Assembly: GCA_016788705.1 (NCBI GenBank) | Contig: JAEUSQ010000027.1 | Coordinates: forward strand, 65,572-129,571 | Length of the DNA stretch: 64,000 nucleotides | Direction: 5' to 3' | Origin: Bacteroidetes Order II. bacterium | GTDB taxonomy: Bacteria; Bacteroidota; Rhodothermia; Rhodothermales; UBA2364 | Shown here: positions 31,595 through 58,468 of the stretch, piece by piece | Numbering within the stretch: position 1 is the stretch's first letter | Layout: each line of letters starts with the position of its first letter | The notes under the pieces: model-generated | What the model was told of the DNA's origin: nothing | What the model saw: the letters and a program-made list of their open reading frames with translations, nothing else | The model's database searches: none | Position numbers and translations under genes: made by a program

Positions 31595-33613
31595 TTAAGG
31601 AATCTGAAAATAAATTAATATGCACGTTCCTTCCTGACTACTTTTTAATTCCATTTTTCCATCTAATTGACGAACCAATCCTTTGACCAAATTCATGCCA
31701 AGCGTCTGACGATTAAATAAGCGAACATCTTCTGGGATACCAACACCATTGTCCGTTACATTCAAGTAATAATAAGATTCTTTCTGATAAAAGGATACTT
31801 CTATTTTGCCATGAGACCTATTTTTGAAGGCATATTTATAACAATTTGTAATAAGCTCATTAACGATCAAACCTGTTGGTACTGCAGTATCAATGTCTAA
31901 CTTAGAATTATCTATATTAAGATCAACAAAAATAATTTGACTTTCTAATTTATATGACAATTCTATATTGTTAATAAGAGTTGTAATAAAGTCTTGAATA
32001 CTTAAAGTTGACAAGTCCTCTGACTGATATAAGTTTTGATGAATTAATGCAATTGAATACACACGATCTTGCCCTTCTTTCATAAGTTTTTTTGCTTGTT
32101 CATCTTTCATATTTCGGGCTTGTTTTTCAAATAAACCTGAAATAATTTGCAAATTATTTTTGACTCTATGATGAATCTCTTGAAGTAGCCTTTCTTTATC
32201 ACCTAAAGAACTTTCCAACATTTTTTTTTGATCCACAATTATCTTATTATCATTTTTAATCTTATATATTATAATGATACCCACGAATAAAACAAGACCA
32301 AGTACAATCACAGCCAAGTTTTTTAACCACTGCTCTTGACGACCAACCTTGATCGCATCCTCTATTTTATTTTCATATCTTTCGGCATCTACTCGCATTT
32401 CAATTTGCCAAATCTTTCGTTTATCTTTTTGTTTTTCCAAACTATCCTCTATCACATTAACAAGTTTAAGAAACTTATACGCATTTAGATAATCATTTTT
32501 AATTTCAAAATAATTCACATTATTATAATAAAATGGAAGTAACTTAAAATAATTACCTTGATCATTAAAGCGAATATATTTCTGCAAGAGCCTCGAACGT
32601 TCTAAATATTTTTTTGCCTCCTCAACTTTATTTTGCCTTAACTTTAACTTGACAACAACTTGAAGTGCGTCGAACTCTGCTATGGTCTGACTAATTGAAT
32701 TCGGGTCTTTATAATTATAGTTCATCTGATACAATTTATACCCTCTTTCGGCATAAAAATTTGCACTCCGAATATCATTTAACTCCATATAATAGGAAGC
32801 TATATCCAAAGAAGAAAGTCCTTGCCAAAATATCTTCCTCCAGTCTTGTGGGTTCTGATTAGCACCTATTACATGGTTTGCATTATAAATCAACTGAGCA
32901 TACAAAATAGCCTTTGCATAATCTTTTTGGTTTGCATAAATGGCTTGAATCAGATTCAAAGTCAGCGTATAAAAAATCTCAGATGTACTTTGCGTATATC
33001 TAATAGATAGACTTAAACTCTCTAAGGCTTTTTCATAATCTCCCAACGAGTAAAAAGTTCTTCCCATATGATATAACATCCAATCACCATTATATAAATA
33101 AAAATTCTTGAACCCAAGCGCTTTCATGCTTGACAATTTTTTAAGATACGAAGAATACATTTCTTGTTCTTTCAATCTTCCATTAGCAAAATCATTTAAT
33201 TCTAACGACATTTCTGCAACAATCCTTTCAACTTCAAACCCTGTATTTTGCTCTGAAATTCTAATAATTTCTTTTAACCCTTCAACAGCTTCAGTAACTG
33301 AATAGTTGAAAGGGTGCATGACATGCCCTTTTGTATATAACCAAAAAGCTAATAATTTTTTATTTCCTTTACGATCTATATATTTATAAATTTGTTCATA
33401 AGTATATTTATCATATAAATAAAAATTCTTAATAAATATCATCCGTTCTTCATCATTATCCAACTTATTAAAATCATGAATTGTTGATTTAATAAATGTA
33501 TTCCCTTGTTGTGACAATATTTGAAGTGAAAAAATAAAAAATACACATAAAGAAACAAATAGCTTTTTTATACAGCCATCATAAAATCTACAATAAATAT
33601 ATGGCAGATGCAT
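31595..33613 (-). CDS. TPR-containing sensor histidine kinase (HisKA_2 type)
   Basis: 672 residues. The leader (KKLFVSLCVFFIFSLQIL) suggests export of the N-terminal part, which consists of about 380 residues of helical repeats of TPR type (DYEKALESLSLSIRYTQS, YAKAILYAQLIYNAN). One membrane helix follows (LAVIVLGLVLFVGIIIIYKI, about 425-445). The kinase core has EIHHRVKNNLQIISGLF (phospho-accepting His about 480) and the ATPase boxes GLIVNELITNCYKYAF and VTDNGVGIP. This dimerisation type usually pairs with CheY or LytTR regulators. It is visibly far more AT-rich than its neighbours. There is no adjacent regulator; the LytTR gene 5 kb away is a candidate partner. It ends 9 bp from the convergent GH53 gene. 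Confidence 0.88.
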   Translation of the reverse strand: MHLPYIYCRFYDGCIKKLFVSLCVFFIFSLQILSQQGNTFIKSTIHDFNKLDNDEERMIFIKNFYLYDKYTYEQIYKYIDRKGNKKLLAFWLYTKGHVMHPFNYSVTEAVEGLKEIIRISEQNTGFEVERIVAEMSLELNDFANGRLKEQEMYSSYLKKLSSMKALGFKNFYLYNGDWMLYHMGRTFYSLGDYEKALESLSLSIRYTQSTSEIFYTLTLNLIQAIYANQKDYAKAILYAQLIYNANHVIGANQNPQDWRKIFWQGLSSLDIASYYMELNDIRSANFYAERGYKLYQMNYNYKDPNSISQTIAEFDALQVVVKLKLRQNKVEEAKKYLERSRLLQKYIRFNDQGNYFKLLPFYYNNVNYFEIKNDYLNAYKFLKLVNVIEDSLEKQKDKRKIWQIEMRVDAERYENKIEDAIKVGRQEQWLKNLAVIVLGLVLFVGIIIIYKIKNDNKIIVDQKKMLESSLGDKERLLQEIHHRVKNNLQIISGLFEKQARNMKDEQAKKLMKEGQDRVYSIALIHQNLYQSEDLSTLSIQDFITTLINNIELSYKLESQIIFVDLNIDNSKLDIDTAVPTGLIVNELITNCYKYAFKNRSHGKIEVSFYQKESYYYLNVTDNGVGIPEDVRLFNRQTLGMNLVKGLVRQLDGKMELKSSQEGTCILIYFQIP

Positions 33614-33681: not shown

Positions 33682-34794
33682 TTATTTTACAAATACCGTA
33701 CCATCGGATGCAATGTGAGGCATGGTGTTGGGAAAGTCCAATTTAGACAATCTCCGCAAGGTAGAAATGGCCGAATTTGACTTGTCTTTTGTTAAAATCC
33801 CACGTCCTGTAAGTACAAAAGGATGGATTTTCCCGCTTGAGAACCTCCCCTCGGCATCCAATTTCACCTCCAAGACCATCGTTTCCGCAGTAGGGCCTGC
33901 CAGTTGGAACCAGCCATAGGTAGCAAAATTACCGAGCGAATAGGCAATCAGGCGGTCTTTATACACCTCCATTCCGCGCAACACATGCGGCCCATGACCC
34001 AGCACCAGGTCCGCACCAGCATCAATAACGGTTTTAGCAAAAAGTGGTAAATTACCGCGGGCTTCTCCAAAAAACATCTCTGTTTTATTAGGAACACGGG
34101 TATTTCCAGAACCTTCTGCCCCACCATGAAACGAGACCACCACCAAGTCTGCTTTGGCATCTGCATCTTGTACCAGTTGGCGTGCGGCTTCCAATTCATT
34201 CACATTGGGTGCAACATTATTGTGGGCAAACCCAATAAACGCCACCTTTTTGCCTTTAATCTCCTTAAAAGTAGTTGCAAAAGACTGACGATCCCCACCT
34301 GCATGAAGAATGCCAACTTCATCCAACGTCTTACGTGTACTTAGACGGCCTGCTTCACCAAAATCATTCGCATGGTTATTGGCCACACTTAGCACATCTA
34401 ATCCTGCATTTTTGAGGTGTTTTCCGTAGCGATTTGGCATTTTAAAGGCAAAACAATTCCCACTTTTTCCACACTTACCAGAGGCTCCTTCGTCAATTAA
34501 AGGGCCTTCTAAATTGGCAAAGGCGATATCTGCTGCCTGAAATAAAGGCGCAACAGGATCGAGTAGCCGAGCACCGTCTTCGGGTGGCATTCTGGTTGTA
34601 TTGGGAAAAGTGGATCCCAGCATGATGTCACCTGCCGCAGCAATCGTAATTGGCTCCAAATTCTTAACAGGGGTGTTTGTAGCAACCGACCCATTGACTT
34701 TGTCTATTTCCTGTTTTTCATTTTTCGTACAACCCGCAAGAAACCAACAACAGATTAATAAACATGAGGTTCGGTATAATGTAGAAAATGTCAT
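33682..34794 (-). CDS. CapA-family metallophosphatase-fold lipoprotein (PGA_cap)
   Basis: 370 residues from ATG 34794. A lipoprotein leader ending WFLAGCTKNEK is followed by the CapA/PgsA domain: AAAGDIMLGSTFPN (metal-binding Asp), FANLEGPLIDEG, VLSVANNHANDFGEAG, VVSFHGGAEGS, DLVLGHGPHVLRGMEVYKDR and IAYSLGNFATYG. The family is named for poly-gamma-glutamate capsule synthesis, but most lone copies lack the CapBC ligase, as here, so a capsule role is not shown. A close paralogue of nearly the same length lies at 56762. It is on the same strand as the small-lipoprotein cluster, 186 bp after it. Confidence 0.88.
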   Translation of the reverse strand: MTFSTLYRTSCLLICCWFLAGCTKNEKQEIDKVNGSVATNTPVKNLEPITIAAAGDIMLGSTFPNTTRMPPEDGARLLDPVAPLFQAADIAFANLEGPLIDEGASGKCGKSGNCFAFKMPNRYGKHLKNAGLDVLSVANNHANDFGEAGRLSTRKTLDEVGILHAGGDRQSFATTFKEIKGKKVAFIGFAHNNVAPNVNELEAARQLVQDADAKADLVVVSFHGGAEGSGNTRVPNKTEMFFGEARGNLPLFAKTVIDAGADLVLGHGPHVLRGMEVYKDRLIAYSLGNFATYGWFQLAGPTAETMVLEVKLDAEGRFSSGKIHPFVLTGRGILTKDKSNSAISTLRRLSKLDFPNTMPHIASDGTVFVK

Positions 34795-34980
34795 CAAAAT
34801 ATGGGGAAAATTTCAAAAAACGAGCATGTCAGTTTATCATCATTCCCTCCGAATAAATTATCCGGTGATGTGAGCGCAAATATAATAACTGGCATGATTT
34901 AAAGTTAGCATTTTTATACTGATCATACAACTTTTACGGACCTATCTTCCTTTATAAACCTGCAAACATACCAGCCCAAT

Positions 34981-35466
34981 TTACATGTGTTCGTTAAAAC
35001 TGAGATTCGCCATAAACGGAATTTCTTTGTTACCGTTGTTGGTAAACGCAATCGTTTGGTCTCCTGATTTAGTAGCATGATCCGAACAAGGGCCATCTTC
35101 TGCAAGATCGCGTACTTTTCCATTTACGGTCACGGTTACTTTTGTACCCAGGTCTGTATCGGGCATAATACATGTCATGAACCCTTTTTGTACAAAAGCC
35201 ACATACGCCTTGGTTTCACCTGCGTCCAAAGTGATTTTCAGATCGGTATCAGAGGCACCTTTTGCCAATTTTATACGCTCAGACTGACTGCCCGTGGTTT
35301 CTGCCGACTCAATTTCGTCCGAAGTTTCATCCGGCACAGGTGTCTCTTCCTTGGGTACGGAAGACGTAGTGGGAGCACTTTCTGGTTTGGCTTCAGGCGC
35401 AGAGGCATTATTGCCACAGCCGGGAAGTACAAAAACCAAAAGCAAGAAATAAATATTTTTTTTCAT
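34981..35466 (-). CDS. Small lipoprotein with PliG-like domain (paralogue 1)
   Basis: About 161 residues from ATG 35466 (MKKNIYFLLLVFVLPGCGNN), which gives a lipobox LPGC. A Ser/Glu/Pro-rich linker (about 20-65) leads to IKLAKGASDTDLKITLDAGE followed by TKAYVAFVQKGFMTC. This repeats the pattern seen in the genes at 37087 and 37537 ([VI]K[FL]xKGxSD-x(5)-T[IL]-x-A ... G[QF]). The pattern resembles the beta-sandwich of periplasmic g-type lysozyme inhibitors (PliG) and, more loosely, PPC domains. It has two extra Cys (TCIMPD, GPCSDH) that could form a disulfide. Function is inferred only from pattern. Confidence 0.6.
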   Translation of the reverse strand: MKKNIYFLLLVFVLPGCGNNASAPEAKPESAPTTSSVPKEETPVPDETSDEIESAETTGSQSERIKLAKGASDTDLKITLDAGETKAYVAFVQKGFMTCIMPDTDLGTKVTVTVNGKVRDLAEDGPCSDHATKSGDQTIAFTNNGNKEIPFMANLSFNEHM

Positions 35467-35634
35467 CCGTTTTTGTATTTTTTTGATTATATAAATAACC
35501 GGTTTACACAATGTAAACATTCACAAAAAGAATTTGACAATCTGTCATCTTATAAATATTTACAGATGAAGGATCGCCAAGATTGATTAAAATAACGATA
35601 TTACATCACTTTCTAAATACCTAAGTACAAGACT

Positions 35635-35808
35635 ACAGAGTCATCATAATATATTTTTGTGATGTTTTTACGCTTAGTTAATGATTTTCAGAGCCTTGGA
35701 TTTCATATTCATTTGGCTGTTTGAAACCACCATTCCAAGTGACACGTGTTGTTATCGAGGAATCAAGGAAGCAAGAATATCGCTATGTTTAAAGAAGTAA
35801 GGTACACT
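35635..35808 (-). pseudogene. Decayed PliG-like copy, related to the gene at 37087
   Basis: On the minus strand the translated pieces FFKHSDILASLIPR, then ITTRVTWNGGFKQPNEYEIQ, then KRKNITKIYYDD follow the order and wording of the intact paralogue (DFKDSDIVASLVPPGTTNVT, WSGGPKEPNEYEIQ, TRKPITMTLYLDI). They lie in different frames, with an in-frame TAA after the first piece and another near 35678. Nucleotide similarity with 37155-37270 is obvious by eye. No start or signal peptide remains. It lies between two intact small-lipoprotein genes. Confidence 0.75.
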
Positions 35809-35838
35809 AAAACTTAGAATCTTGGCACACCTTATTTT

Positions 35839-36405
35839 TTATTCGCAACTAATTTTAGAAATAAGCCATTTCCCATCTTCTTTCATCATCTCCAATTTGC
35901 TGGCTCCTACAGTAGTCTTTACTTGACTTGTGCCAAGCCCAGCTACCTTAAGTGTACCCGTTGTATATTCTTTTGGATCCCAATCTTGTCCGCAGAATAC
36001 CCTGTCGTAATCTTCACCCGATAAAGGGGCTACATTACCATTTTCGCTATCTTTTGCCCAAATCGCTTCGTATTTTTTCAGATACGCCATGTCATTGTCA
36101 ATATAGGCTTGGCCGAGAAAACCGCTTTTCATCATTTGAGCGTGATAGGCAGCCACTTTTGGCATGTCCAATTTTGAAAACTTGCCTTTTGAGTCAACAT
36201 ATTCAATGGGATCAATACCCGACGCATACCATTTGTAAAAATTATGTACCGCATCGGTGATCGCCGCTAAGTCAGTATTTGGGTCAACCTTATTTTCACC
36301 TATATCAACCCGTTTATCAGTCGGCATAGTATCCTTGGGCGCTTCTTTACAAGCGAAAAAAGCACCCAAAGCGAGGTAGGTTATTGTTAGCTTTATTATT
36401 TTCAT
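35839..36405 (-). CDS. DUF3828-like lipoprotein
   Basis: 188 residues. The leader KLTITYLALGAFFACKEAPK ends with a plausible lipobox (FFAC). The rest has VHNFYKWYASGIDPIEYVDS, MAYLKKYEAIWAKDSE, VFCGQDWDPKEYTTGTLKV and the ending KEDGKWLISKISCE. The tryptophan/tyrosine pattern FYKWY and the closing GKWLIskI resemble DUF3828 proteins, small exported proteins of unknown role, some encoded beside toxin or lysozyme-related genes. It lies 36 bp after the gene ending at 36442, in the leftward cluster. Confidence 0.6.
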   Translation of the reverse strand: MKIIKLTITYLALGAFFACKEAPKDTMPTDKRVDIGENKVDPNTDLAAITDAVHNFYKWYASGIDPIEYVDSKGKFSKLDMPKVAAYHAQMMKSGFLGQAYIDNDMAYLKKYEAIWAKDSENGNVAPLSGEDYDRVFCGQDWDPKEYTTGTLKVAGLGTSQVKTTVGASKLEMMKEDGKWLISKISCE

Positions 36406-36441
36406 TGAACGAGGAATTTTAATAACTAAATTATTTACTAT

Positions 36442-36996
36442 TTACAATTGATCTGCGGCCGATTCTTTCCATGCGCCTGTCGCGGCCGTCGGGATGGGCG
36501 TCATCTGTTGCCAGGATTGCGTCATGATTTGTGTGCGGGTAAATTTCTTCGCCGGTTTTACGGTATAGTCATTTACGGTTTCGGTCAGTTCTTTTGTGTC
36601 ATTGGGAAACGAAAGGGTATGTGTTTTTTGCACGTTCCCCTTGCCGTCTTTCAAGGTATAGGTTACCTCGTGGTGGTACTCGCTTTGGGCGGTTTCTACC
36701 GTCATGGTGGCATCGTCTTTGGCGTAGGTAACGGTTTCCATCACGGTATCACCTTCCGAGTCGTTTATTTTCGCGGGTGTGCTTTTCCACGTCGCCAGAT
36801 CGAAGTTCCCAAAATGCTCGAAGTTGATTTGCGGACTATTAAAAGGCGGGGGGGTGGTTTCCGGAGCTGGTTTGGACGTTTCGGCATCGGGTGGCGCCGG
36901 GGCTGGTTTTTCACCACCGCCACACGCGGAAAACAGGAGCGTACCCAGTAAAACAAGCACGGTATTGAGGCGTAAAGCCGTAAACATGGATTGCAT
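36442..36996 (-). CDS. Lipoprotein of unknown function with Pro/Ala-rich linker
   Basis: About 184 residues from ATG 36996 (ATG 36987 is equally possible). The leader LVLLGTLLFSACGGGEKPAP has the lipobox FSAC. A Pro/Ala/Thr linker follows, then FEHFGNFDLATWKSTPAKIN and a beta-rich domain (TVMETVTYAKDDATMTVET, EVTYTLKDGKGNVQKTHT). It ends QIMTQSWQQMTPIPTAATGAW plus nine residues. I do not recognise the family. The same C-terminal wording (DQSWQQVKPLLTSTVGTWQE) is found in a remnant at 38004-38129, so this gene too has been duplicated. It belongs to the leftward cluster behind the LytTR-type site at 38210. Confidence 0.6.
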   Translation of the reverse strand: MQSMFTALRLNTVLVLLGTLLFSACGGGEKPAPAPPDAETSKPAPETTPPPFNSPQINFEHFGNFDLATWKSTPAKINDSEGDTVMETVTYAKDDATMTVETAQSEYHHEVTYTLKDGKGNVQKTHTLSFPNDTKELTETVNDYTVKPAKKFTRTQIMTQSWQQMTPIPTAATGAWKESAADQL

Positions 36997-37086
36997 AAAG
37001 AATGTAGGTTTGGGGTTAATACTCAAAAAGACGGCAGGCCCATGATGGTCTCAACACAAGCCTGCCGCAGAATAAAGCCGGATGGT

Positions 37087-37470
37087 TTACATGATGTCTA
37101 AATAAAGCGTCATTGTGATGGGCTTCCGGGTGGTGTTCTTCACCTTCAGCTTGTGGTTTCCGGTGTCCTGAATTTCGTATTCGTTAGGCTCTTTCGGACC
37201 GCCGCTCCAAGTAACATTGGTGGTACCGGGAGGAACCAGCGAGGCCACAATATCGCTATCCTTAAAGTCGTAGCCAACGGTAAAGCCCATCGTTTGACCT
37301 TTTCTTGCATTGATTACAAAGGTAATAGAACCGTTGGCTGGAATGGTACGTGTTAACATTGCGTCCGAAGCACCCCTTGCAAATTTGACCGTTTCAGTTT
37401 TGTTGGTTTGTGCAAATGCAAATCCAGCAAAGAGGAATAATACCGCCAGAATTGAATTGACTTTTTTCAT
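37087..37470 (-). CDS. Small exported PliG-like protein (paralogue 2)
   Basis: 127 residues. A signal peptide (MKKVNSILAVLFLFAGFAFA) is followed directly by one beta-rich domain: VKFARGASDAMLTRTIPANG, FVINARKGQTMGFTV, then WSGGPKEPNEYEIQDTGNHK with LKVKNTTRKPITMTLYLDI. The order of motifs (VxFxKGxSS..., A+KGQ..., xSGxYxLxV..., final strand) and the size match PliG, the periplasmic g-type lysozyme inhibitor of enterobacteria, as I remember it. The SGxY position is altered to TGNH here. It has a decayed copy at 35635-35808. A single PPC-type domain is the alternative. It should be periplasmic, lacking a lipobox. Confidence 0.62.
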   Translation of the reverse strand: MKKVNSILAVLFLFAGFAFAQTNKTETVKFARGASDAMLTRTIPANGSITFVINARKGQTMGFTVGYDFKDSDIVASLVPPGTTNVTWSGGPKEPNEYEIQDTGNHKLKVKNTTRKPITMTLYLDIM

Positions 37471-37536
37471 TGTCTTAGCCTTTTAATGGTTTGGTTAATT
37501 TAAACGTGGTTGCTTTATTTTTGGAAGGGCTTATGG

Positions 37537-37920
37537 TTAATAATGTTTACCATTCCCTGCAAAAAATCTAATATTAAAGGTTTTTTTACTATTTCCAGTA
37601 TTTGAGACTCTAATCAGGTATTTTCCAGAGTCATTGGCTAAAACCCGTAAGCCACCGGGTTCTGTTTCATGGTCAGAGGCCATGCTGGGATTTTGTAACG
37701 TAATGGCGATATTTTCGGATTGACTGCCAAGTGCAGAAACAATGATCGCTTGCCCACCTCGCACCTCAATCGAGTAGGTTTTAGAAGCATTTTTAGACAA
37801 AGTTACTGCAATGGTTTTTTCACTTTTTCCTTTACCAAATTTCACCACTTCTTGGGCGTACACATGGGAAAAGGATACAGTGAATCCTAAAAAAAACAAA
37901 ACGATGAATAACTTTTTCAT
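37537..37920 (-). CDS. Small exported PliG-like protein (paralogue 3)
   Basis: 127 residues from ATG 37920 (MKKLFIVLFFLGFTVSFSHVYAQ); the longer frame back to 37974 would bury the signal peptide. The mature domain reads VVKFGKGKSEKTIAVTLSKN, YSIEVRGGQAIIVSALG, then LANDSGKYLIRVSNTGNSKK and FNIRFF. The DSGKYLIRV stretch keeps an SGxY motif like those of periplasmic lysozyme inhibitors, making this the most PliG-like of the three. It is the first intact gene reading leftward from the regulatory site at 38173-38238. Confidence 0.62.
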   Translation of the reverse strand: MKKLFIVLFFLGFTVSFSHVYAQEVVKFGKGKSEKTIAVTLSKNASKTYSIEVRGGQAIIVSALGSQSENIAITLQNPSMASDHETEPGGLRVLANDSGKYLIRVSNTGNSKKTFNIRFFAGNGKHY

Positions 37921-38003
37921 AACGACTATATTAATTGTGAAAGATGATTTTCTGTTTAAGGTCCGTAAAAACATTAATGATCTGTATCACCATATTGGTC
38001 GGT

Positions 38004-38172: not shown

Positions 38173-38238
38173 AGAAAATAGCCCGTTTAAAATCTAAATG
38201 CAAAAAACAGGGACGAAACCTTAGTTTGGTGGGACGAA
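38173..38238 (-). promoter_or_regulatory. LytTR-type direct-repeat operator and promoter facing the small-protein cluster (site 1)
   Basis: GGGACGAA occurs at 38210-38217 and 38231-38238, repeat starts 21 bp apart. Read on the minus strand this is TTCGTCCC-N13-TTCGTCCC. Five bases further on is TTTG (38204-38201), then exactly 20 bases, then TATTTTCT (38180-38173), close to the Bacteroidota promoter. Transcription would run left into the small exported-protein genes. Confidence 0.7.
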
Positions 38239-38383
38239 CAGGCATACACACACTTATCACACATCTTTCTAGTCATCTCAGACTGCCAAAGACCGAACAC
38301 AACATTAATTACGGCATCTAAATCACTTAAAATCAAGCATTCTACCTATCTTAGACCCATTCAACGGCAGAGACTTGTACAAA

Positions 38384-38412
38384 TTCGTCCCACGAAAAGG
38401 TGGTTTCGTCCC
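38384..38412 (+). promoter_or_regulatory. LytTR-type direct-repeat operator upstream of the LytTR regulator gene (site 2)
   Basis: TTCGTCCC at 38384-38391 and 38405-38412, again with repeat starts 21 bp apart, reading toward the regulator gene whose ATG is 125 bp downstream. A TTTG lies at 38424-38427, but the following -7 element (TATGCATT at 38445) is weaker and closer than at sites 1 and 3. This suggests autoregulation. Confidence 0.68.
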
Positions 38413-38536
38413 AACCCACTTGCTTGCTTTGACACATTTCTGTATCATTATGCATTGGCAAACAGATGATGAAAGCCCCCATGGTTTGCCGTATCCAATC
38501 TATCTCCTGAAGTTAAATTTTGAGGTTTTGTCAAAT

Positions 38537-39289
38537 ATGATAGAAAAAAAACGAATACTTATCGTTGAAGATGAATTCATTACCATGGATATGCTTAGAG
38601 ATATTCTTGAATCCGCTGGATATGAAATCTCTGGGGATGCCATGCGTGCATCGGAAGCAATTGATGTACTGGAACGATTCGAAACCGATATTGTGGTGTT
38701 GGATATTAACCTAAAAGGGGATAAAGATGGCATTTGGCTGGCGGAGCAAATTCGTAAACATTACCACATTCCATTTATCTTTTTAACGGCATACAGCGAC
38801 CATATCACAGTGGACCGAGCATCCAACACCAATCCCTACGGTTATTTGGTAAAACCCTTTACAAAGGCAGATGTATTTTCTGCTTTAGAAGTGGCACTAA
38901 AGAACTATCAAAAGGAAATAAGTCCATTAGAGATCACAACTTACGACAAAACAGTTCACGGCTCTCTATTAATTAGCCAACATATTTTCATTAAAGATAA
39001 TTTTTCTTATAAAAGAGTTAAAATATCTGACATTCTTTATATACAATCTTACAAGAATTATCTAGAAATTTATACCCTAAATAGACAAATAATGGCCAGA
39101 ACCACCTTACAAAAGATGATGGATATGCTTCCAACAGAATTTTTCATTCAGGTTCATCGTTCTTTTATTGTAAATATACGTTTTGTTGAAGAAATAAATC
39201 CAAATATAATTACTATCAAAGATCACTTAATTCCCCTAAGTAAAAGTTTTAGAGATCGCTTTATAGATCATTTTAAATTCTTTGAATAG
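38537..39289 (+). CDS. LytTR-family response regulator
   Basis: 250 residues from ATG 38537 (MIEKKRILIVEDEF); the frame stays open to 38375 but that part is non-coding in character and contains site 2. The receiver has the acidic pair (VEDEF), acceptor Asp56 (IVVLDINLKGDKDG), switch Thr (PFIFLTAY) and Lys (YGYLVKPFTKADV). The LytTR DNA-binding domain (about 145-248) has ISDILYIQSYKNYLEIYT, TLQKMMDMLPTEFFIQVHRS and FIVNIRFVEEI. LytTR dimers bind pairs of short direct repeats about two turns apart, which is what sites 1-3 are. It is probably phosphorylated by a HisKA_2 kinase such as that at 31595, and is the likely regulator of both flanking clusters. Confidence 0.92.
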   Translation: MIEKKRILIVEDEFITMDMLRDILESAGYEISGDAMRASEAIDVLERFETDIVVLDINLKGDKDGIWLAEQIRKHYHIPFIFLTAYSDHITVDRASNTNPYGYLVKPFTKADVFSALEVALKNYQKEISPLEITTYDKTVHGSLLISQHIFIKDNFSYKRVKISDILYIQSYKNYLEIYTLNRQIMARTTLQKMMDMLPTEFFIQVHRSFIVNIRFVEEINPNIITIKDHLIPLSKSFRDRFIDHFKFFE

Positions 39290-39323
39290 TTATGTTCATC
39301 TATTCTATTATGAAGTTAATAAA

Positions 39324-41261
39324 TTATTTTACAACATCTATTCCATTGCCTTTTAAGTGAATTATGCGACGATTTAAGACCAGATTATCCAGCGTTAGTC
39401 GTAAAAGATAAACGGCAGCTGGTAAGGAGTCAGCGGGGATCCATTGCCACTCATGAAGTCCTTCTGGGCAAATTTCTTCGGTTATTTTTGCTACTTTAGA
39501 ACCATTCAGGTCATAAACCTCCAAAAGAACTGGAGATGCATTTTCAAGATTGACTTGGATTGTTTTTATCCTTGAAGAAGGATTGGGAAAAACATAAAGA
39601 AGCGTAGATTTCTTAGTAGGAGTAGGCTGATCAGCCAAGTTATTGACCACAACATCTGGAGATTTTTTTCGATTTATCATGAGCATCACTTCTCCCGCAG
39701 ACAATATTCCTTGCGTAGTTCCGCCGTGTTCCAATCGAACAACTTGTTGCATTCCTTTTTCCAAGTAAACAGACCCAATTTTTTGCCAACCATTCTTTTG
39801 GGCATCGGTTTGGTTGACTAAGGCACCCGTCTCACCCGTTTTTCCAAACACTTGATACCGTGCGTGGGTGGTTTGCGTGACATCGGCAGATTGATGGGCA
39901 TACACATCGAACCATGCAGAGAATGGAACGAGAAAGGAATAGGCCATCTGTGCGTTTACTTCCTCACTTCCCCAAAGGGTTGTGTTTTTGAAACCTGTTT
40001 TGGGCAAAGCACTCCATGTGCCGCTTATTGGCGTTTTGAAGGCACTAAAAGTAGCAGGCGGACGAAATGCGCCTCCTTTTCGCCCCGGAACAAATGCTGG
40101 CTTGGCATAGGCGGTCTCTTTCAACAGATTGCCGAGCGCATTGTTCTGGGCGCGGAATCCTTCATAAAAGAAATAGACCTCGCCCAGAACTCCTTTTGCC
40201 CGGTTGGTTTCGATGAGCTTAGAAAGATAGTCTGCCGAAATAAGATATGACCCCACTTTCATCAAAACTCCTGCATAATATCCAGAAGAAGATGTGGTAT
40301 TATAAGATAAAGACAGATTCAATTCTTTTGTATAATCATTGAAATTGTAGCGATAAAGTTGGGGAATCACCTCGTCGGCAAGACCATCCTTCATCCAAGT
40401 TGGGGAATCTTGTAAGTACTCGGCATATGCCCACGGATACAAACTAGGGCTTGCTGCTACGGTAAGGTGGGTTCCGTGTTTTTTTACGACCTCTCGGACG
40501 CTCCTGAACCACTCGTTTAACTTGTCTGCACGCCACCGCACCCATGCGGGGTCTTTGGGGTCATCGGGGGGATTTGCGCCACCGTGTTCTTTTTGATAAA
40601 GCGCTACAGTATAAGGCTCGTAACCACCTTCATAGGGCATAGCCGGAATTCGGTCGGAGTATTCGATACCGTCCACGTCATAATTCACCACCACCTCTTC
40701 GGTCATTTCTCGGATCAAGGCTTGCGGCCCCGGATGGATATTACTCATCCAGTCGAAGCCATTTTTTACAACCAATTTTCCAGTTTTATCGCGAAGTGCC
40801 CAATCCGGATATTTCTGAAGGATATGACCGCCATTCTGCGAATATGACGTAGAAAAGCCCATTTCGAACCAAGGCAGAACCTCCATTCCATTCCGGTGTG
40901 CCTCGATTACAATCCGTTCTAAGGCATCTCGTCCGGCAAAGCGAGGATGGATAGCGGTGCCAAAATATCGCTCAAAGACGGCACTTGGGTACAGCGGAAA
41001 GTCCCCGTTGGCACCATTTGAGTTCCAGACAACGGGCACGACAGTATTAATCCCAACCGAGGCCAAAAAATCCATCGCTTCCGCAATCCGCGCATCCTCG
41101 AACATGACCTGGCTGTCCACATTGGTAATTTTGACTGCACGCAACTCGCTAATGGGTTGGGCCTTCAACGAACCATTTGCCATATTGCAAAGCACCACCA
41201 TAGAGAATACCCTTCCAATAGCGCATCGTATCCATTTTCGACAGATAAAGCCATTTAGCAT
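39324..41261 (-). CDS. Secreted GHL10-type glycosidase (YngK/DUF187-like) with T9SS sorting domain
   Basis: About 645 residues from ATG 41261, chosen because CAIGRVFSMVVLCNMANGSLKA behaves as a signal peptide; longer starts (to 41342) are possible. The catalytic-type barrel begins ELRAVKITNVDSQVMFEDAR, then SVGINTVVPVVW, AHRNGMEVLPWFEMGFS, YDVDGIEYSDRIPAMPYEGG and EWFRSVREVVKKHGTHLTVA: the glycosyl-hydrolase-like 10 family (PF02638), whose members act on glycan or peptidoglycan-related sugars. The last 90 residues (LLYVFPNPSSRIKTIQVNLE, AVYLLRLTLDN) are a T9SS sorting domain. It ends 34 bp from the convergent LytTR gene and is divergent from the giant-protein cluster, sharing the intergenic region with site 3. 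Confidence 0.85.
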   Translation of the reverse strand: MLNGFICRKWIRCAIGRVFSMVVLCNMANGSLKAQPISELRAVKITNVDSQVMFEDARIAEAMDFLASVGINTVVPVVWNSNGANGDFPLYPSAVFERYFGTAIHPRFAGRDALERIVIEAHRNGMEVLPWFEMGFSTSYSQNGGHILQKYPDWALRDKTGKLVVKNGFDWMSNIHPGPQALIREMTEEVVVNYDVDGIEYSDRIPAMPYEGGYEPYTVALYQKEHGGANPPDDPKDPAWVRWRADKLNEWFRSVREVVKKHGTHLTVAASPSLYPWAYAEYLQDSPTWMKDGLADEVIPQLYRYNFNDYTKELNLSLSYNTTSSSGYYAGVLMKVGSYLISADYLSKLIETNRAKGVLGEVYFFYEGFRAQNNALGNLLKETAYAKPAFVPGRKGGAFRPPATFSAFKTPISGTWSALPKTGFKNTTLWGSEEVNAQMAYSFLVPFSAWFDVYAHQSADVTQTTHARYQVFGKTGETGALVNQTDAQKNGWQKIGSVYLEKGMQQVVRLEHGGTTQGILSAGEVMLMINRKKSPDVVVNNLADQPTPTKKSTLLYVFPNPSSRIKTIQVNLENASPVLLEVYDLNGSKVAKITEEICPEGLHEWQWIPADSLPAAVYLLRLTLDNLVLNRRIIHLKGNGIDVVK

Positions 41262-41388
41262 GTTGAGCGTAACGGTATCTGATTTGCTTTTCGCGTAATC
41301 AATTGTTTCTATTATTCTGTATCCCTTCATAACTTTATACAAGATAAGGTATTAAGTGGCTTCGGCACCATAAAAAACACGGGGATCA

Positions 41389-41455
41389 TTCGTCCCTCCA
41401 AATGGGATATTCGTCCCAAATGTTTTGACATCATTGAAAAATTTCGATACCTTTC
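41389..41455 (+). promoter_or_regulatory. LytTR-type direct-repeat operator and promoter of the giant-protein cluster (site 3)
   Basis: TTCGTCCC at 41389-41396 and 41410-41417, repeat starts 21 bp apart. Six bases further on is TTTG (41424-41427), exactly 20 bases, then TACCTTTC (41448-41455), near the consensus TAnnTTTG. Geometry and orientation match site 1. The ATG of the first gene of the cluster is at 41616, leaving a leader of about 155 bp. The rest of the spacer 41262-41615 shows nothing else. Confidence 0.72.
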
Positions 41456-41615: not shown

Positions 41616-43328
41616 ATGAAAAGCAACCTCTTAGTCGTCCTATATGTGTGGGCGCTAGGGAGTATGGTGGTTTTGCACGCGCAAACCACACCCCCAACCT
41701 CTCAAAGTGGGGACAAACGACCCGCCTTGGTACGTATGTCTGGCTCACTGGGGCTGAACGGAGACTTTTTCCGAACCAGCCGCGCCCGCCAAACGGCTCC
41801 AGATTTACTGGGGCGTGTTTATTCGGACTTTACCCTGCATTTGGGCAAAGTACAACTCCAGTCCAATATCCTTTATTCCAGCGAACAAAACCGGTTCCAG
41901 GAATCCCTAAACCAATTAGGATTGCGGGGACGCTGGCGTGGTTTATCCTTTTCGGTGGGTGACCATTACCCCACCCTTTCTACATTTAGCCTAAACGGTA
42001 CAAAAGTAAAAGGGGCTTCTGCACAAATGGATCTTGGTGGTCTATTTATCTCCGGTAGCTGGGGGACGAACGGCGTTGGTAAACAGAAAGATTTGGAAAA
42101 TGGCGGGAAATATGAAGCCTACACCCAAGATGTCCGTGCTTTGAGAATTGGCCTTGGCAAGCCTGATGGAACCCATTTGCACGTGGTGGTTTTCTCGGCA
42201 AACGATGACAGCACATCCGTCAATGGCAGGTTACAAACCATAAAACCTCAACAGAACCTTAGTTTGTCCACCTCCACTTCCATCAAATTATTTAAAGGCG
42301 CTTTTCAATTAAATGGCGAGGCTACAGGCTCTGCCTTTAACCCAAATCAATTTGGTTCCAAAGTTGATATCACCACCTTTTCTAAAGAACAAGGTATTCC
42401 AGAATCGGCCACCAATTTCCTCAGTAAGTTTTTTTCCCCAACCTCAGGTACCGCACTCAGTTATGCCCTAAAAGGCGATACCCGCATTCGGTTGCCTTTT
42501 GGTGGGCTTAATGGTTCAGGGCGATATATCGCCCCCGGATTTAGTGCGCTGGGTGCACCGGGGTTGGTAAGCGATGTTTTCGACTGGAGTGCTGGAGCCA
42601 ATATTGGGTTGGCGAAAGGTAAAATCATTGCCAGTGGTCAATACAGCCGAAACCAGAACAACCTATCCGGGCTTTTGCTCAGCACCACCCAGCGGCACGT
42701 GTATTCGGCCAATCTCCAACTTCAACCAATCTCTTCGATAACATTGGTTGGTGGATTTCAGCGTATGGAAAGTAAAACCGAAGGAGAGATTCAGGCCGCA
42801 TACGAACAAATGTTTACCAGTTGGAACCTTAGCCCAACACTAACCATCACCCGACCCAATGGCCGCTTCCATAATGTATCTCTAAATTTCACCCTGAATG
42901 AATTTGGCGCCCCGGCACTACCTCAACAAGGTGCGGCCAATTTCCGCAATATTGGTGGGATGGCTTCCTTAAACAGTATGATTGGAAAGGGCTTGTCTTT
43001 GCTGGCATCCGGAACCTACATGAAGGATTCGTCTGCCTTTTCCAATGGAACGACGCAAGGCATCAATGCTGGCTTGGTTAAACCCTTGTTAAACAAGAAA
43101 TTACGTATCAGTCTATTGGGGAGTATCGACCGCAGCAATTTCCAAATGACCGGGGTCGAGAGCGCCACAGAGACCCTTCGTTTTGCAGGAAGACTCAACT
43201 CTACGTGGAACCTGACCCCTAAAGATGCTTTCCAATTTGGCTTTACAGGTACAAGGGTACAACTTTCCTCGCTTACGACTCCCGTTCGGGAAATTCGGAG
43301 CAATGCCGCCTATACCCGCACGTTTTAA
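41616..43328 (+). CDS. Predicted outer-membrane beta-barrel-type protein, first gene of the giant-protein cluster
   Basis: 570 residues with a signal peptide (MKSNLLVVLYVWALGSMVVLHA). The mature protein is made of short alternating strands with Gly/aromatic turns (LGRVYSDFTLHLGKVQLQSN, GGLFISGSWGTNG, LSLSTSTSIKLFKGAFQLNG, IGLAKGKIIASGQYSRNQNN) and ends with strands LRFAGRLNSTWNLTPKDAFQ and AAYTRTF, with an aromatic C-terminus as in outer-membrane barrels. I do not recognise a named family. It lies 27 bp before the 3710-residue gene and probably provides its outer-membrane anchor or export partner; this is inference from context. Its promoter carries LytTR-type site 3. Confidence 0.65.
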   Translation: MKSNLLVVLYVWALGSMVVLHAQTTPPTSQSGDKRPALVRMSGSLGLNGDFFRTSRARQTAPDLLGRVYSDFTLHLGKVQLQSNILYSSEQNRFQESLNQLGLRGRWRGLSFSVGDHYPTLSTFSLNGTKVKGASAQMDLGGLFISGSWGTNGVGKQKDLENGGKYEAYTQDVRALRIGLGKPDGTHLHVVVFSANDDSTSVNGRLQTIKPQQNLSLSTSTSIKLFKGAFQLNGEATGSAFNPNQFGSKVDITTFSKEQGIPESATNFLSKFFSPTSGTALSYALKGDTRIRLPFGGLNGSGRYIAPGFSALGAPGLVSDVFDWSAGANIGLAKGKIIASGQYSRNQNNLSGLLLSTTQRHVYSANLQLQPISSITLVGGFQRMESKTEGEIQAAYEQMFTSWNLSPTLTITRPNGRFHNVSLNFTLNEFGAPALPQQGAANFRNIGGMASLNSMIGKGLSLLASGTYMKDSSAFSNGTTQGINAGLVKPLLNKKLRISLLGSIDRSNFQMTGVESATETLRFAGRLNSTWNLTPKDAFQFGFTGTRVQLSSLTTPVREIRSNAAYTRTF

Positions 43329-43355
43329 AGATTAAGACTTAACCGCTCTTCAAAT

Positions 43356-46300
43356 ATGCGTAAAATACCTTTACTGGTCATTTTTTGGCTCTTGACCACT
43401 GTATCTGCCTCGGCACAATGGTCCCTAAACATCACCGGAATCCCTTATGTATCTCCGCCAAATCTGACACGAGATATTCTGGATGGATACCGCCAAACTG
43501 CACGGGTGAACTTGGTACATGGCGCTGCTTCGCCAGCAACGGTACAATTCCACCTCGCGGTGTACACGAGTTATAACAAGCTCACCCCAGTAAACGGCAC
43601 CACGCCTGGCCTAAGTTCCATCCTTTCCACCATACAAGGACTTGCGGGTAGCTCGGTCAACCGCTTAATCGCTATCGCCAGTAGCGACCCTGTCACCCTG
43701 ACAGGACCATTAACTTATAGCAAAACCTTTGAAGCCTTTTGGGCCGAATACAAATTTAGCAGTTCATACGCCCCTGAATTGGAATCCAAACTTAATGCTG
43801 GACAAATTATGGAAGGCACCCATGCCGTATATGTATGGGTTACTGAAGCAGGCGGCGCACCACTGGCTTATGACGGACGAATTTACACGGTCAGTACCCC
43901 CTCGGCCCCTACCCTGCTCTTTCCGGCGGATGGGCGGACGTTACTCGCTCGCACCACTCCAGATTTTCGTTGGACGCCCGTCTCCACATCCTATCCAATT
44001 CCGGTGGTGCTTTATCGGTTGCGGATTGTGGAAGTATTGAATGGACAATCGGCGGTCCAAGCCATGAAAACCAATCGGATTTATTACGAGGCCATAACCA
44101 CAAATATTACCCAACACCGATACGACCTCTCCCTACCCGAATTATTACCCAATCGGACATATGCTTGGCAGGTAGAATCTTTGGACAGTACTGAAGAACC
44201 CCTTTCTTCGACCTATCAAAGTGAAGTTTTTACTTTTAAAACACCGGAAGACGGGGTCTCTGTACCAGTCACCATCCCAGACCCACCAAAAACCAAAGCC
44301 AGCATTCAATTGGTGACCCCTCTTCCCACGGCCTTTAACCAAGTGGCGGGTGCACCTTTAAACTCAAACTTTTTGGCAAAGGTTAGTCCAATTGCTTCTT
44401 GGTCAGATCTAAACTTAGAAATCATTCGCATCACAGACCCCAGTATAGACATACAAACGCTTCGTAATGCAAGCACGTTCGAATCGTATTGGCTTGCAGG
44501 CGACCAAGACGGCCCAACCCCTACAAGCCCCAAACGCATTGAAGTTTTGGAAGGACCTGTTTCATATGATGGTAGTGGCGCCCTTAAAGTAACCGGTTTA
44601 AACCTACGCCCCATTGGGGTTCCTTCGTATGCCGTTTTTCGTTATACCGGAAAAAATGCCCTCCATACTTCCGACATTCCGGATGTCCTGTATCCTGTAT
44701 TAAAATCAGAAGTGGGCGTCGCCTATTTACCTGGTGCTTCACCCAACCCGCTTGAGCAAAAAATTGAAATACTGCGCCCTTCAATAGACAGCGTAACACC
44801 GCTCCAAGCTAAGGAAACATTAACCATAGAAGCGAAATTCACGCCAACCCAAACAGGCACGCCGGAGGGTGGCTGGCGTAATGTAAAGGTGCAAGTCATC
44901 TTACTTTCGGTAACGGGAGCGCCAACGGCCAATATGATCACCCAGGACAGCTTTGATGCTTTGGTGACCAAAGCCAAAAACGAGGGTGACTTCTCGTTAA
45001 GCGAAACAGTGCTTACCTTAGAAGAAACGGGCGAATTACGCTACACCAGTCCACCATTTCCAGAATTAGGAAAAAACTACTGGCTCGCCTATCGTTTGGT
45101 TGGCGAACTCGGTTCGGGTGCAAATACCAAGACCTTCACCTCTGCCATTGGGCGCATCGAAGTCCAGTCAATACCACGAACCCTAAGCTTAGCCGTTGAT
45201 GGTTTCACGCCTCGCACCACCATTCGCCGCAGTTCACAAGACTTTAGCGTTCAAGCAAGCCCAGCAAATCTGCTTTCAGAGTCCTCTGTGAGTACCGTTA
45301 TTTGGTATAAAGAAGTGACGGGCGCAGACAGCACAATGACGGGACGGCAACGGGCTTTTAATGAACTTAGCCGTTTATTCAGTCGCCCCAATGCCAATCC
45401 GTCCATTCCCTCGGACTACACCGAGTGGATGCACCCTATTGATGCCAGCACAGGAAATGGCACCATGCGCCTGCCCATTAAAGGTAAAAATGCAATAGTT
45501 GTTTATCGTTTGGTCTGGGACCTTGCAGGGGAGAAGCTCTACTCAGCCCCCATTTACCTTTATTATAATGGTAGTTTGCCGCAGTTTGATCCTGAAATCG
45601 TCCTCAATTCGCCCTCAACGAATCAGGTCAACCAAACGGCGGCGAATTCAAATGTGGTTACGTTTAGCGGTACGCTCGCGCCTTTCTACCCCAATAACAA
45701 TGATCCCGCAAAAGGCATTTGGCAGGGAAATGATTTACGCATTGAGGCCATCCGCATTACGGACCCAAGCATCACCCCACAAACCATCACGACGCAAGCC
45801 AGTTTTAACAACTTACTTACCCAAGCAGAAGCTGGTTCTAATGTCCAACTTACCCGCCTTAGCTTCCCCACCACCCTTCAAGCCGATGGTTCTTTTAGCG
45901 CGGTTGCAAGCAATCTAACCGCCAATATCGGGGTTGATTATCGGGTGGTATTTCGGGTGAAAGGTGTACTTTCGGCTGAAATAGAAGATGAATCGCAAGA
46001 CCAAACGGCCTTTTCGCCTTTGGGTTGGTATGAGGTCAAAGCCGTAGATCCGCTTGTTGTAAAAGTGGAGGGTCATACGCAAGGCGCAAGGGTTCAAGAA
46101 ACCTACCAACGGTTTACCTTTACCTATGAAGAATCCAGCTATTCAGACCCACAGTTTGAAGGATGGTATAAAATCCTAAGCCCACAAGATTCGTCAGCTA
46201 CGGCAAAGCGGGCGCTCATCAATACCTTAGGTGCAACCTTAGGCCCCCGGCCTGCCAGCCCTGCCTTGCCTGCTGGATTTACCCCTTTTAGCCTCCCCAG

Positions 46301-49300
46301 TTATACTGTTTTTGCGGGGAGTTACGAAGGTTCTTTTGGATTTCCAGCGGCCATCCTGAATGAAAATGCGGTTTTGGTCTATCGCATTAGCGTCAAAAAC
46401 AGCAAAGGGCAGAAGGTGTACTCAAATCCCATCTCGCTTGTGTACCAAAAAGAAGAGCTACGATTAGAGGTGCTTACCCCAGTAACACAAACGCTCATGA
46501 GCATCAATGGCGGTAGCACAGTTGATTTTAAAGGAAAGTTGGTTCCTGCGGCGAGAAGTGGTAGGTGGAAAAACCCCTATCTGGTCTATTACCTTGTCTA
46601 TGACCCGAACCTAAAACCAACGGATGTCAATACAAAACAAGAACTTGACCGTGTTCGTAATTTAGTAAATGAGGGCAGTTTGTCCTTTCCTCAGCGACCA
46701 GGAAGTAAATACATTAGCCTTTCCCCCAATGCTACGGGAGAAGTCCAAGTTTTAGGCGAAAGTTTCCCAGATATAGGACAGGATTATTGGGTACTCTATC
46801 AATTCGGCGCTACCTACGATAAAAACGGCAACAATATTAGCCTTGAGTCCACATTCGGCAAAATCCAAGTCAAGTCAAAAGGGTCTTTTTCCTTAAATGT
46901 ATCTGGGTATCAGCCCCGTTTACAAACCGCTGTCAATACGTTGGACTTTCGTTTTGATTACAATGCAGACCTTTGGGGGGCGAATTACACCTTCCAACTC
47001 GAAGGTTTTTATAAAGAATTGTTTTCATCCGATGACGTAAGCCCCAGCAACAAAGACGCACTATTTAATACCTTGACAACGGCGATGGCACAAAACACCA
47101 CGCCAGCAGGGTTTAGCACATGGAAACAAACCCTTAGCAATCCCGCCACAAAATCAGGTCAGATGATGCTTCCCAGCGAGTGGTTGGGCAATTCGATTGT
47201 AGGATTTAGGCTTAAAGCAAGCAATGGATACTATACCTTTTACACCCAGCCTGCTATTTTCGAGTACCAGCCAAGTGGTTTTAAGCCGAGGCTCTCGATC
47301 ACACAGCCGATGGGCGCAGGGCCTTTCACAGCCACTGCTGGGCCTGATTTTGTATCGTTTACCGCTAAACCAGAACCTGTTTTTCCAGCGGAGGCAAGGG
47401 CCACAAAAGGAACCTGGGAAAGTATTACCTTAGAAACGGTCACGGTTTATGACCCAACCATCCCCAGTAATACCCTTAAATCGCACGCTGACTTTGAGGC
47501 TTTCGCGGCAAAAGGGAAGGGCTGGACGGCGTTTGACCACAAGGTGACCAGCTTTGAAGAAACCAAACAGCCTAGTGGCTATAGTGACTTCCAACAAACC
47601 GCCACCTTAGCCTTCCCTACCTATCGGTTTGCCCGTTTGGGACAAGATTATTGGGTAGCCCTCCGCTTTAAAGGCATTTTTGTTCGGCAAATCAATGGAC
47701 TGCCCCAACGCACAACCTGGTATTCAGACATAGCGCATTACGAAATCAAAGAGCCAGAAACCCCCACGAGGCGCAATGGGATTACGCTTAAAAACCCATC
47801 GGGCATTCCAGTTACCAAAGCCTCCGAAGAGCCAATTGGCGATCATTTTGCCGCACAAGCCTATCCCACTGGAGGCTGGTCAAGATTGGTCTTGCGGATT
47901 ATTTACTTAACAGACAAAAACGTAAGCCCCTCATCCCTCTTTGATGCAGGTAATTTTACCAATTATTTTACCAACTCACAGCAAACGGCAGAGATAAGGG
48001 TTTCAATGGACGCACAGGGCAATATTAGCCATGGCAACATAGAACTCCCCAACCTTGGCACCGACTTCTACGCTATTTATCAGTACGTTGGCAGAAGGGA
48101 TGACTGTGGTTTGGACATTCCCTGCGGCTCGGACATTGGCATTGTGTATGTCCCCAAATCTATAGCCAAATTAAAGCCATTGGCTTTGCTTACCAGTCAT
48201 GGGAGTGGACAAAATGACCGCGATGCAGGTACAAGCGAGTCCTTTACGGGCCAAATTAGCCCCTATTTGCCCGGCAATACCGACAATAGCAAAGGCGTTT
48301 GGAAAGACCTAAAGCTACAAGTTTTAAGCACCAAAGACTATAACACCCTTTTTGGTGAATTAGACCAACGTAAAAAAGAGGCCGCTTTTTATCAAGGCGC
48401 ATTTACCAAACTGGTCAATAATGCCAAAGACCCGAAATCGGGGTTAAGCCTCACCGAAACGAGCATTACCCCAGACGCAAGTGGCAACCTGAACCTTTCG
48501 CAGCTTTTATCGGAACAGGGGCATGACTATTGGGTTGCGGTGCGGTTTGCAGGAACTTTTGTTTCGGAGCGAAACGGGGTCACAACCGAGCAAAACATGG
48601 CAACCTCTTATGCGCGGTTCTTGGTCAAGACCAAAGCCACGTTCAGCATTGCCGTCGAAGACTACAGTCCCTACATGGTTTTGGATAAAAAGACCCAAGA
48701 TTTTAGCCTCAATTCTACCATCCTTAGTCAATTAAAAGAGGTCAAAATACATGTTGCCTATCAAATCATGCCCGATAATGCCGAGATGGCAATGTCTTCG
48801 GCGTTGAGAGAGCTAAAATCCGCAACGGAAGCGCTGATCTATAACAACGAAACCCTCCCTGCTACCTACAAAACATGGACGCAACCGTTTACGGATTTGG
48901 TGAATGGAAAAGACAAACTCGCCGTTACGGATACCACCTTGTTCCGTGCCGCTTTGGTCTATTGGGTGAGTGGGAAGTTTAACGGGGACGTTTTTAAGAG
49001 TAACCCTATCTTTTTGGATTTAAAGATTCCTCGCCCCGAACCTAAATATGTGGTCACCCAAACCATACCCAAACCAGACGCAACCACCTCGGCAGATGCA
49101 GGAAGTGTACAAACCTTCCGCATCAAAACCACCCCTTGGGATGTTTACAACGACCAAAAGGTCACCGACAAATGGGATCGGGTGAGCATGCAAGTGGTCT
49201 ATGTTTGGGATGATTTCCCCACCAATGTCGTTACCACCCAAGAAGAGTTCAATAAGCTCTTTAACGAAAAAGAAATACGCGGCACTGCCGTGACCAAAAT

Positions 49301-54488: not shown

Positions 54489-54493
54489 TTCAC

Positions 54494-56584: not shown

Positions 56585-56761
56585 AGGCCCGAACTCCTCT
56601 GTATCCGACCAAGCAACATACGGTATAAATGGAAGCATGGGTTTTCAATCTTCCACTTGTACCGTATTTTGTTCTTAACGGATTTAAATTACAAACCAGC
56701 AAATTTGCGTTCAAGGAAGGCTTTAGCCCCTTTGCTGCAATTTGCTATAACCAGCGATTAC

Positions 56762-57877: not shown

Positions 57878-57901
57878 ATACATCTGCCTACTTGTAATCG
57901 C

Positions 57902-58468
57902 ATGACTGCTTCTTTTCAAGACCAAACCTTTCACACCACCCACTTCCCAGAGGGCCGAATCCGTGGCCAATTTGAAAATTGTCAATTTATCGGCTGTACC
58001 CTTCCCAATGCCATGCTTTCCAGTGCCGAGTTCTCCGATTGCAGCTTTGAGGACTGCGACCTGAGCATGGCCCAACTGAATGGAACGGTATTTCGAGAGA
58101 CCCGATTTATTGCTTGTAAGATGTTGGGCATGCCGTTCGACACCTGCAACGACTTCTTGCTCTCTTTCAGTTTCAAAAATTGCAACCTTGATTTTTCGTG
58201 TTTTAACGGCCTGGTTATCAAACAAACCGTTTTTGATCAGTGTAGTCTTGAAGGCGCTTTTTTCCTCAAAACCAATTTAGAAAAGTCCGTATTTAAAAAC
58301 ACCAACTTGGCAGATGCTGCTTTTGAACAGACCCATCTTGCAGGAACGGACTTCCGATCTGCCTATCACTTTTCCATTGACCCAGAAAAAAATTACCTCA
58401 AAAAAGCACGTTTTTCGGCAGATAATCTTGCTGGGCTCTTACGAAAATATGACCTCAAAATTAATTAA
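57902..58468 (+). CDS. Pentapeptide-repeat protein, Qnr/McbG-like
   Basis: 188 residues made of A/C-[DN/S/E]-L/F-x-x repeats: FENCQFIGCTLPNAMLSSAE, FSDCSFEDCDLSMAQLN, SFKNCNLDFSCFNG, TVFDQCSLEGAFFLKTNLEK and TNLADAAFEQTHLAGTDFR. This gives a right-handed quadrilateral beta-helix. It ends HFSIDPEKNYLKKARFSADN and LAGLLRKYDLKI, the wording of the C-terminal cap of Qnr and McbG, which mimic DNA and protect gyrase. No leader is present, so it is cytoplasmic. A gyrase-protecting role is a family-based suggestion, not shown here. It probably shares a transcript with the CapA copy. Confidence 0.85.
   Translation: MTASFQDQTFHTTHFPEGRIRGQFENCQFIGCTLPNAMLSSAEFSDCSFEDCDLSMAQLNGTVFRETRFIACKMLGMPFDTCNDFLLSFSFKNCNLDFSCFNGLVIKQTVFDQCSLEGAFFLKTNLEKSVFKNTNLADAAFEQTHLAGTDFRSAYHFSIDPEKNYLKKARFSADNLAGLLRKYDLKIN

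Follow-up and report, generated by a model that had tools for sequence, protein, structure and literature searches.

A 64,000-nucleotide stretch of a Bacteroidetes Order II. bacterium genome (assembly GCA_016788705.1, contig JAEUSQ010000027.1, positions 65,572 to 129,571; hereafter the window) carries three pairs of perfect 8-bp direct repeats around a gene for a response regulator with a REC and a LytTR domain. From their sequence context, we assign these pairs with high confidence as the operators of that regulator. The explanation that best accounts for the whole, and which we consider very probable, is that a sensor kinase encoded in the window signals to the regulator, which would then activate three transcription units through the paired operators. 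The best reading of the arrangement is autoregulation combined with co-control of an operon for PliG-like exported proteins and an operon for a giant exported protein.

Paired repeats around the LytTR gene

Each site has the form TTCGTCCC-N13-TTCGTCCC. Site 1 (38210..38238, minus strand) points at a minus-strand operon for small exported proteins. Site 2 (38384..38412, plus strand) lies 5' of the regulator gene, where it would mediate autoregulation, and site 3 (41389..41417, plus strand) lies 5' of the giant-protein operon. The repeat starts (38210/38231, 38384/38405 and 41389/41410) are 21 bp apart in all three pairs, exactly where a preliminary description of this DNA had placed them; the LytTR gene it reported among the sites lies between sites 2 and 3. 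The pairs thus have the form of LytTR operators, at least two short direct repeats with a phase of two helical turns; LytTR proteins bind two or three such repeats (PMC4847170, PMC11347149).

The 29-mer pattern has three perfect matches in the window, where base composition predicts 2e-5 per window and 0.0014 per genome; a shuffled window yields 0.48 matches at up to three mismatches. Genome-wide scans comprised pattern and profile searches. The whole genome (66 contigs, 4.28 Mb) contains no perfect match besides these three, which cluster within 3.2 kb around the LytTR gene; a single copy with one mismatch occurs elsewhere (G000:C53:69968). The preliminary description had set the regulon inside the window, which holds for the three perfect sites and not for this degenerate fourth site on contig C53. 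When up to three mismatches are allowed, 58 matches compare with 61 for a reversed control and thus represent background. Matches with two or three mismatches were therefore rejected as further sites; those inspected lie mostly inside genes. Other single 8-mers in the window (42063 and 55242) are both inside long open reading frames, in agreement with the earlier statement that the 8-mer is otherwise single and in coding sequence. An Rfam scan of the window returned no RNA family.

The near-identical sequence at three nearby places could also be what a mobile or repeat element left behind, or stem from a duplication of promoter DNA, with no regulatory role. However, only the two 8-mers are common to the sites, and the N13 spacers and flanks differ both among sites and between species. 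Furthermore, there are three or four copies per genome, always at promoters and in register with the -7 box described below. We therefore consider the relic explanation hardly credible.

Promoter geometry

In housekeeping promoters of Bacteroidota, the -7 element is TAnnTTTG, and TTTG is found near -33 (PMC7366714). A sigma-70 promoter scan, uninformative for such promoters, was set aside. Putative promoter elements follow each repeat pair. At site 1 (38173..38204, minus strand), TTTG (38204-38201) is followed after N20 by TATTTTCT (38180-38173), and the TA of the -7 box lies 29 bp after the repeat end. Site 3 (41424..41455, plus strand) features TTTG (41424-41427), N20 and TACCTTTC (41448-41455). 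Site 2 (38419..38450, plus strand) is laid out in the same way, but its boxes are weaker: CTTG (38419-38422), N20 and TATCATTA (38443-38450). The element TTTG-N20-TAnnTTTC, initially described for sites 1 and 3, is thus exact at site 3 and approximate at site 1.

This geometry is shared by 11 sites in four genomes. We refer to the genome of the window as G000, to two genomes of the same genus as G001 and G002, and to a genome labelled Saprospiraceae as G060 (locus L061). The TA of a TAnnTT-like -7 box begins 29-31 bp past the second octamer in 11/11 sites, and TTTG or CTTG is found about 6 bp past it at most of them. The repeats are therefore positioned just upstream of the core promoter of their target, as LytTR operators are. 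From the repeat-to-box distance, the pair centre lies about 45 bp before the -7 box, which would correspond to roughly -55 relative to the transcription start.

The position of the repeats bears on the direction of control. Repression occurs among LytTR proteins, and the three repeats bound by CoxC overlap the -35 box (PMC11347149); the same regulator might accordingly bind these sites as a repressor or mixed regulator. Here, however, the repeats stop about 6 bp short of the -33 box and leave it uncovered. The -33 box is degenerate at several sites (ACGG in G060, CTTG at site 2), as expected of activator-dependent promoters, and the direct repeats from which AgrA activates have their centre near -60 (PMC4227749). 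A repressing or mixed role thus appears unlikely. Activation, under phosphorylation control, is the likely mode of action.

Conservation in the genus and a remote fourth site

The sites are retained together with the regulator in related genomes. In G002, orthologous sites 1, 2 and 3 occupy the same three places and strands (L160:17684-17712 (-), L160:17740-17768 (+) and L161:866-894 (+)) with 0, 2 and 0 mismatches, respectively. In G001, site 3 is perfect (L162:13561-13589 (-)), and sites 1 and 2 fall off the contig. Across four sites compared between G000 and G002, 60/64 half-site bases are identical, versus 26/52 spacer bases (Fisher p 8e-8) and 141/400 flank bases (ungapped). This contrast indicates that selection acts on the two octamers.

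A fourth, remote site is present in each genome of the genus (contigs C53 of G000, C22 of G001 and C10 of G002). In G001 and G002, it precedes homologous genes for small exported proteins (153 and 174 amino acids (aa), ~35-41% identical) that sit in different gene neighbourhoods, which suggests that the site travels with its target gene. In G000, this target is decayed (G000:C53:69635-69829; L163 about 9420-9997): residues 89-153 remain, with three stops. Where the gene is intact, in G001 and G002, its product is a small exported 'RFSKLLDRCVVL' protein.

Genome specificity and extent of the proposed regulon

A profile of the 11 sites recovers exactly these 11 over the four genomes, with E values of ~1e-8 or better and the next match at 0.03. 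Its matches in G000 are the three window sites and the remote site before the decayed gene. Among 394 phylum genomes, perfect pairs are found in 3/3 genomes of the genus (6 sites) versus 5/391 others, with one pair each. In four of these five outside pairs, a -7 box TA is missing at 28-31 bp. Close regulator orthologues are absent from all five genomes, and we rejected these pairs as members of the same regulon. In G431 (L258; G431:C83:130658-130686), which is without a close regulator orthologue, a perfect TTCGTCCC pair is accompanied by a perfect TATATTTG at +30; this pair may belong to another regulator.

In G060, the genes for the kinase and the regulator, a perfect site and the gene for a 795-aa FG-GAP protein with a type IX secretion system (T9SS) tail follow consecutively. 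The 7.3-Mb genome holds no other convincing match beyond this site. The specificity argues against a different DNA-binding protein. G000 contains 21 matches to the regulator, and another of its ~20 LytTR/receiver-domain regulators, or an unrelated factor, could in principle bind the repeats. However, the sites cluster around one regulator, one of them before its own gene; the G060 site follows a 63% orthologue; and half-site identity tracks regulator relatedness. A different binder is therefore very improbable.

The preliminary description had itself named the finding that would speak most strongly against a LytTR regulon, namely a motif that is frequent at unrelated genes and not conserved in relatives. 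Given the 394-genome survey, the profile and the conservation results, this objection fails: the genome-wide search returned three perfect copies only, and the sites are kept in G002 (all three) and G001 (site 3). The assignment as a LytTR regulon is supported by the REC-LytTR gene, the conserved orthologous sites, the -7-box phasing, the genome specificity and the half-sites that track regulator relatedness.

The regulator and its likely partner kinase

The regulator (250 aa; 38537..39289, plus strand), the proposed DNA-binding protein, matches Response_reg (PF00072, 4e-21) and LytTR (PF04397, 6e-18), the latter over nearly the full model. Its phospho-acceptor D56 is invariant in eight aligned homologues. 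The only solved structures that matched its LytTR domain were 3d6w and ComE (4cbv). Orthologues are 79% identical in G002 and 91% identical in G001, over a fragment cut by the contig end. The G060 homologue is 63% identical, and more distant Bacteroidota homologues range from 33 to 47%.

The likely cognate partner is a sensor kinase of 672 aa (31595..33613, minus strand) that would transfer a phosphoryl group to the regulator. It features an N-terminal signal/transmembrane segment, a periplasmic TPR region, a transmembrane segment near 428-450, and HisKA_2 and HATPase domains; the membrane segments derive from hydropathy. Pfam searches, which covered the window and G060 kinases, identified HisKA_2 (7e-27) and TPR in the window kinase. 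In G060, its homologue (44% over the whole length) is encoded directly before the regulator gene, and a kinase resembling the HisKA_2/TPR type adjoins the regulator in L062, L063, L064, L066 and L067. Because a kinase apparently of this type adjoins the regulator in these six relatives, the window kinase is the likely partner here. The partner would thus be a HisKA_2/HATPase_c kinase with TPR and not a LytS-type kinase.

Proposed target genes

The site-1 run (33682..37974, minus strand) encodes exported proteins, with a PGA_cap protein (33682-34797) at the distal end, followed by the kinase gene on the same strand. The run through the kinase gene is a putative single transcript, and its gene set is largely retained in G002. 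Three of the exported proteins (37537-37974, 37087-37470 and 34981-35520) are PliG-like and represent putative g-type lysozyme inhibitors; two others are encoded at 36442-37026 and 35839-36405, likewise on the minus strand. When aligned with their orthologues, the three PliG-like proteins give a profile that matches four PliG structures (E 6e-4 to 1.4e-3, ~20% identity). In addition, the predicted model of 37087-37470 (predicted local distance difference test score (pLDDT) 78) adopts a PliG fold, the best six Foldseek matches all being PliG (E 2e-8 to 7e-6, TM 0.63-0.67). Profile and predicted fold thus bear out the label initially given to these proteins.

The site-3 operon (41616..58468, plus strand) encodes, in order, a 570-aa protein, the giant exported protein of 3710 aa (43356-54488, plus strand) with CarboxypepD_reg/Ig-like repeats, a 700-aa fn3 protein, a second PGA_cap protein (56657-57877, plus strand) and a 188-aa protein. 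Synteny of the operon holds in G002 and, up to the contig end, in G001. The 570-aa protein is rich in beta-strands and probably forms an outer-membrane barrel, as suggested by a weak model (pLDDT 51). A PGA_cap-family protein is encoded near the distal end of both target runs (33682-34797 and 56657-57877). Convergent with the regulator gene lies a gene (39324-41342) for a GHL10-type glycosyl hydrolase with a Golvesin_C domain and a T9SS-like tail, whose position is conserved in the genus.

A paralogous triad of 575/2100/648 aa is encoded at L251:4324-14375 (G000:C57) and occurs in all three genus genomes. We rejected it as a target of the paired motif. Because the C57 copy has no matching site and lies behind apparent sigma-factor and kinase genes, the giant-protein triad looks like a module that can be placed under different controls.

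Recurrence across the phylum

Homologous regulators (E below 1e-50) are present in 48/394 phylum genomes. In the surroundings of 28 such genes, perfect 8-bp repeats occur at spacing 21 in 13 loci, compared with at most 6 for any other spacing from 10 to 40. With a -7 box required 28-32 bp downstream, spacing 21 gives 10 matches in 9 loci and other spacings at most 5 matches. Among pairs that end in AACA, an ending picked after these -7-box counts had been seen, and that have a -7 box, 6 show spacing 21, against 1 for all other spacings between 12 and 33 combined. The 21-bp-phased repeats have diverged half-sites (TTCGTAACA, TTCAGAACA, TTCACAACA and AACTTCCCA) and often precede genes for large secreted proteins. 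In L066, the regulator is preceded by a TTCGTAAC pair, and a related pair precedes a protein with a length of at least 2626 aa; TTCAGAACA precedes a protein of at least 3250 aa in G489 and, in G336, a protein of 1108 aa that has a sorting-type tail. A triple AACTTCCC-type array lies before a 1384-aa FG-GAP-like protein in L062. In the flavobacterium-like genomes G477, G347 and G350, the site is located before the kinase gene. The same layout of regulator and paired sites thus appears, by sequence, to recur across Bacteroidota.

Triple 21-bp-phased half-site arrays are found at L062:69-118 and at L063:1048, 5088 and 5892. Those in L063 precede genes that look, by eye, cysteine-desulfurase-like, hemerythrin-like and rhodanese-like, a quite different regulon.

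Half-site similarity correlates with similarity of the LytTR domain (r 0.59, p 1e-4 in a Mantel test). Where the regulator has a K-N loop, the half-sites are of the ...CCC type (5/5), and an H-V or N-V loop goes with ...AAC (7/7), an association that may reflect few independent events. Combining these observations, we tentatively propose a Bacteroidota-wide class in which a periplasmic-TPR HisKA_2 kinase and a REC-LytTR regulator would be dedicated to inducing a giant or T9SS-secreted surface protein encoded next to them, by way of double or triple half-sites, phased by 21 bp and ~30 bp from the -7 box, with the short LytTR loop setting the half-site (K-N for ...CCC, H-V/N-V for ...AAC). We give this generalization slightly less credence than its negation.

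Proposed mechanism

In the proposed mechanism, the TPR-HisKA_2 kinase (31595-33613) would sense a periplasmic signal and phosphorylate the regulator. Two regulator molecules would then occupy the two half-sites, whose 21-bp phase places them next to each other on the same DNA face. From there, with the repeats stopping ~6 bp short of a weak -33 box (TTTG/CTTG), they would help a sigma-ABfr-type polymerase to start transcription. The units driven in this way would be the run of PliG-like and other exported proteins that ends near the kinase, the regulator gene, and the giant-secreted-protein operon; a fourth, remote target would be served in the genus, its gene having decayed in this genome. 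Given the PliG-like targets, our guess is that the signal is envelope or lysozyme stress.

Several observations weigh against this interpretation. A perfect 21-bp repeat within 1.5 kb is missing at over half of the sampled homologous loci. The clearest homologue of the same class, in G087, adjoins a large T9SS protein yet shows no recognisable repeat. Closer to the window, site 2 of G002 has two mismatches. The profile uses sequence only and was trained on the very sites it recovers, and 150 first-look candidates were scored per genome, so weak sites could be missed. Finally, the REC domain gives an equally strong Mantel signal (r 0.71); recognition and common descent are therefore inseparable in this analysis, and the LytTR correlation is consistent with, and not proof of, recognition.

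Relation to known systems

To our knowledge, the control of giant secreted proteins is largely unknown. The system described here would tie such proteins to a specific sensor and place lysozyme-inhibitor-like proteins under the same switch. It also provides a candidate operator for a Bacteroidota LytTR class, with a regulon, a likely kinase and a promoter-distance rule applicable phylum-wide, and the half-site changes from clade to clade make LytTR recognition testable through loop swaps. In the open-access literature, we found no description of this regulator class or its operators.

The operators of YpdB, AgrA and other members of the AlgR/AgrA/LytR family consist of two short direct repeats, 11-13 bp apart, upstream of the core promoter (PMC4847170, PMC4227749). 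The sites described here resemble the YpdB and AgrA operators in their 8-bp repeats, 13-bp spacer and 21-bp phase, but differ in the half-site, TTCGTCCC, and in the Bacteroidota -33/-7 promoter. Whereas YpdA/YpdB relies on a LytS-type kinase (PMC4847170), the kinase here is of the HisKA_2 type with a periplasmic TPR region. RcoM and CoxC likewise use 8-bp direct repeats of the TTC type about two helical turns apart, and their triple operators are matched by the triple 21-bp-phased arrays of the distant relatives L062 and L063. In contrast to the system here, both are gas-responsive one-protein regulators without a kinase partner, and CoxC represses (PMC11347149). The site-1 exported proteins resemble PliG (periplasmic inhibitor of g-type lysozyme) in profile and predicted fold, at only ~20% identity. 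AlgR of Pseudomonas is also a LytTR response regulator, with a different kinase, phylum and targets. Its half-site, CCGTTCGTC, would share TTCGTC with the half-site here, a possible lead.

The preliminary description had announced a new system. This was overstated with respect to the binding of LytTR proteins to phased direct repeats, which is established (PMC4847170, PMC11347149), and the system therefore joins a known kind. The novelty lies in this particular system with its regulon, and in the repeated association of such systems with large secreted proteins.

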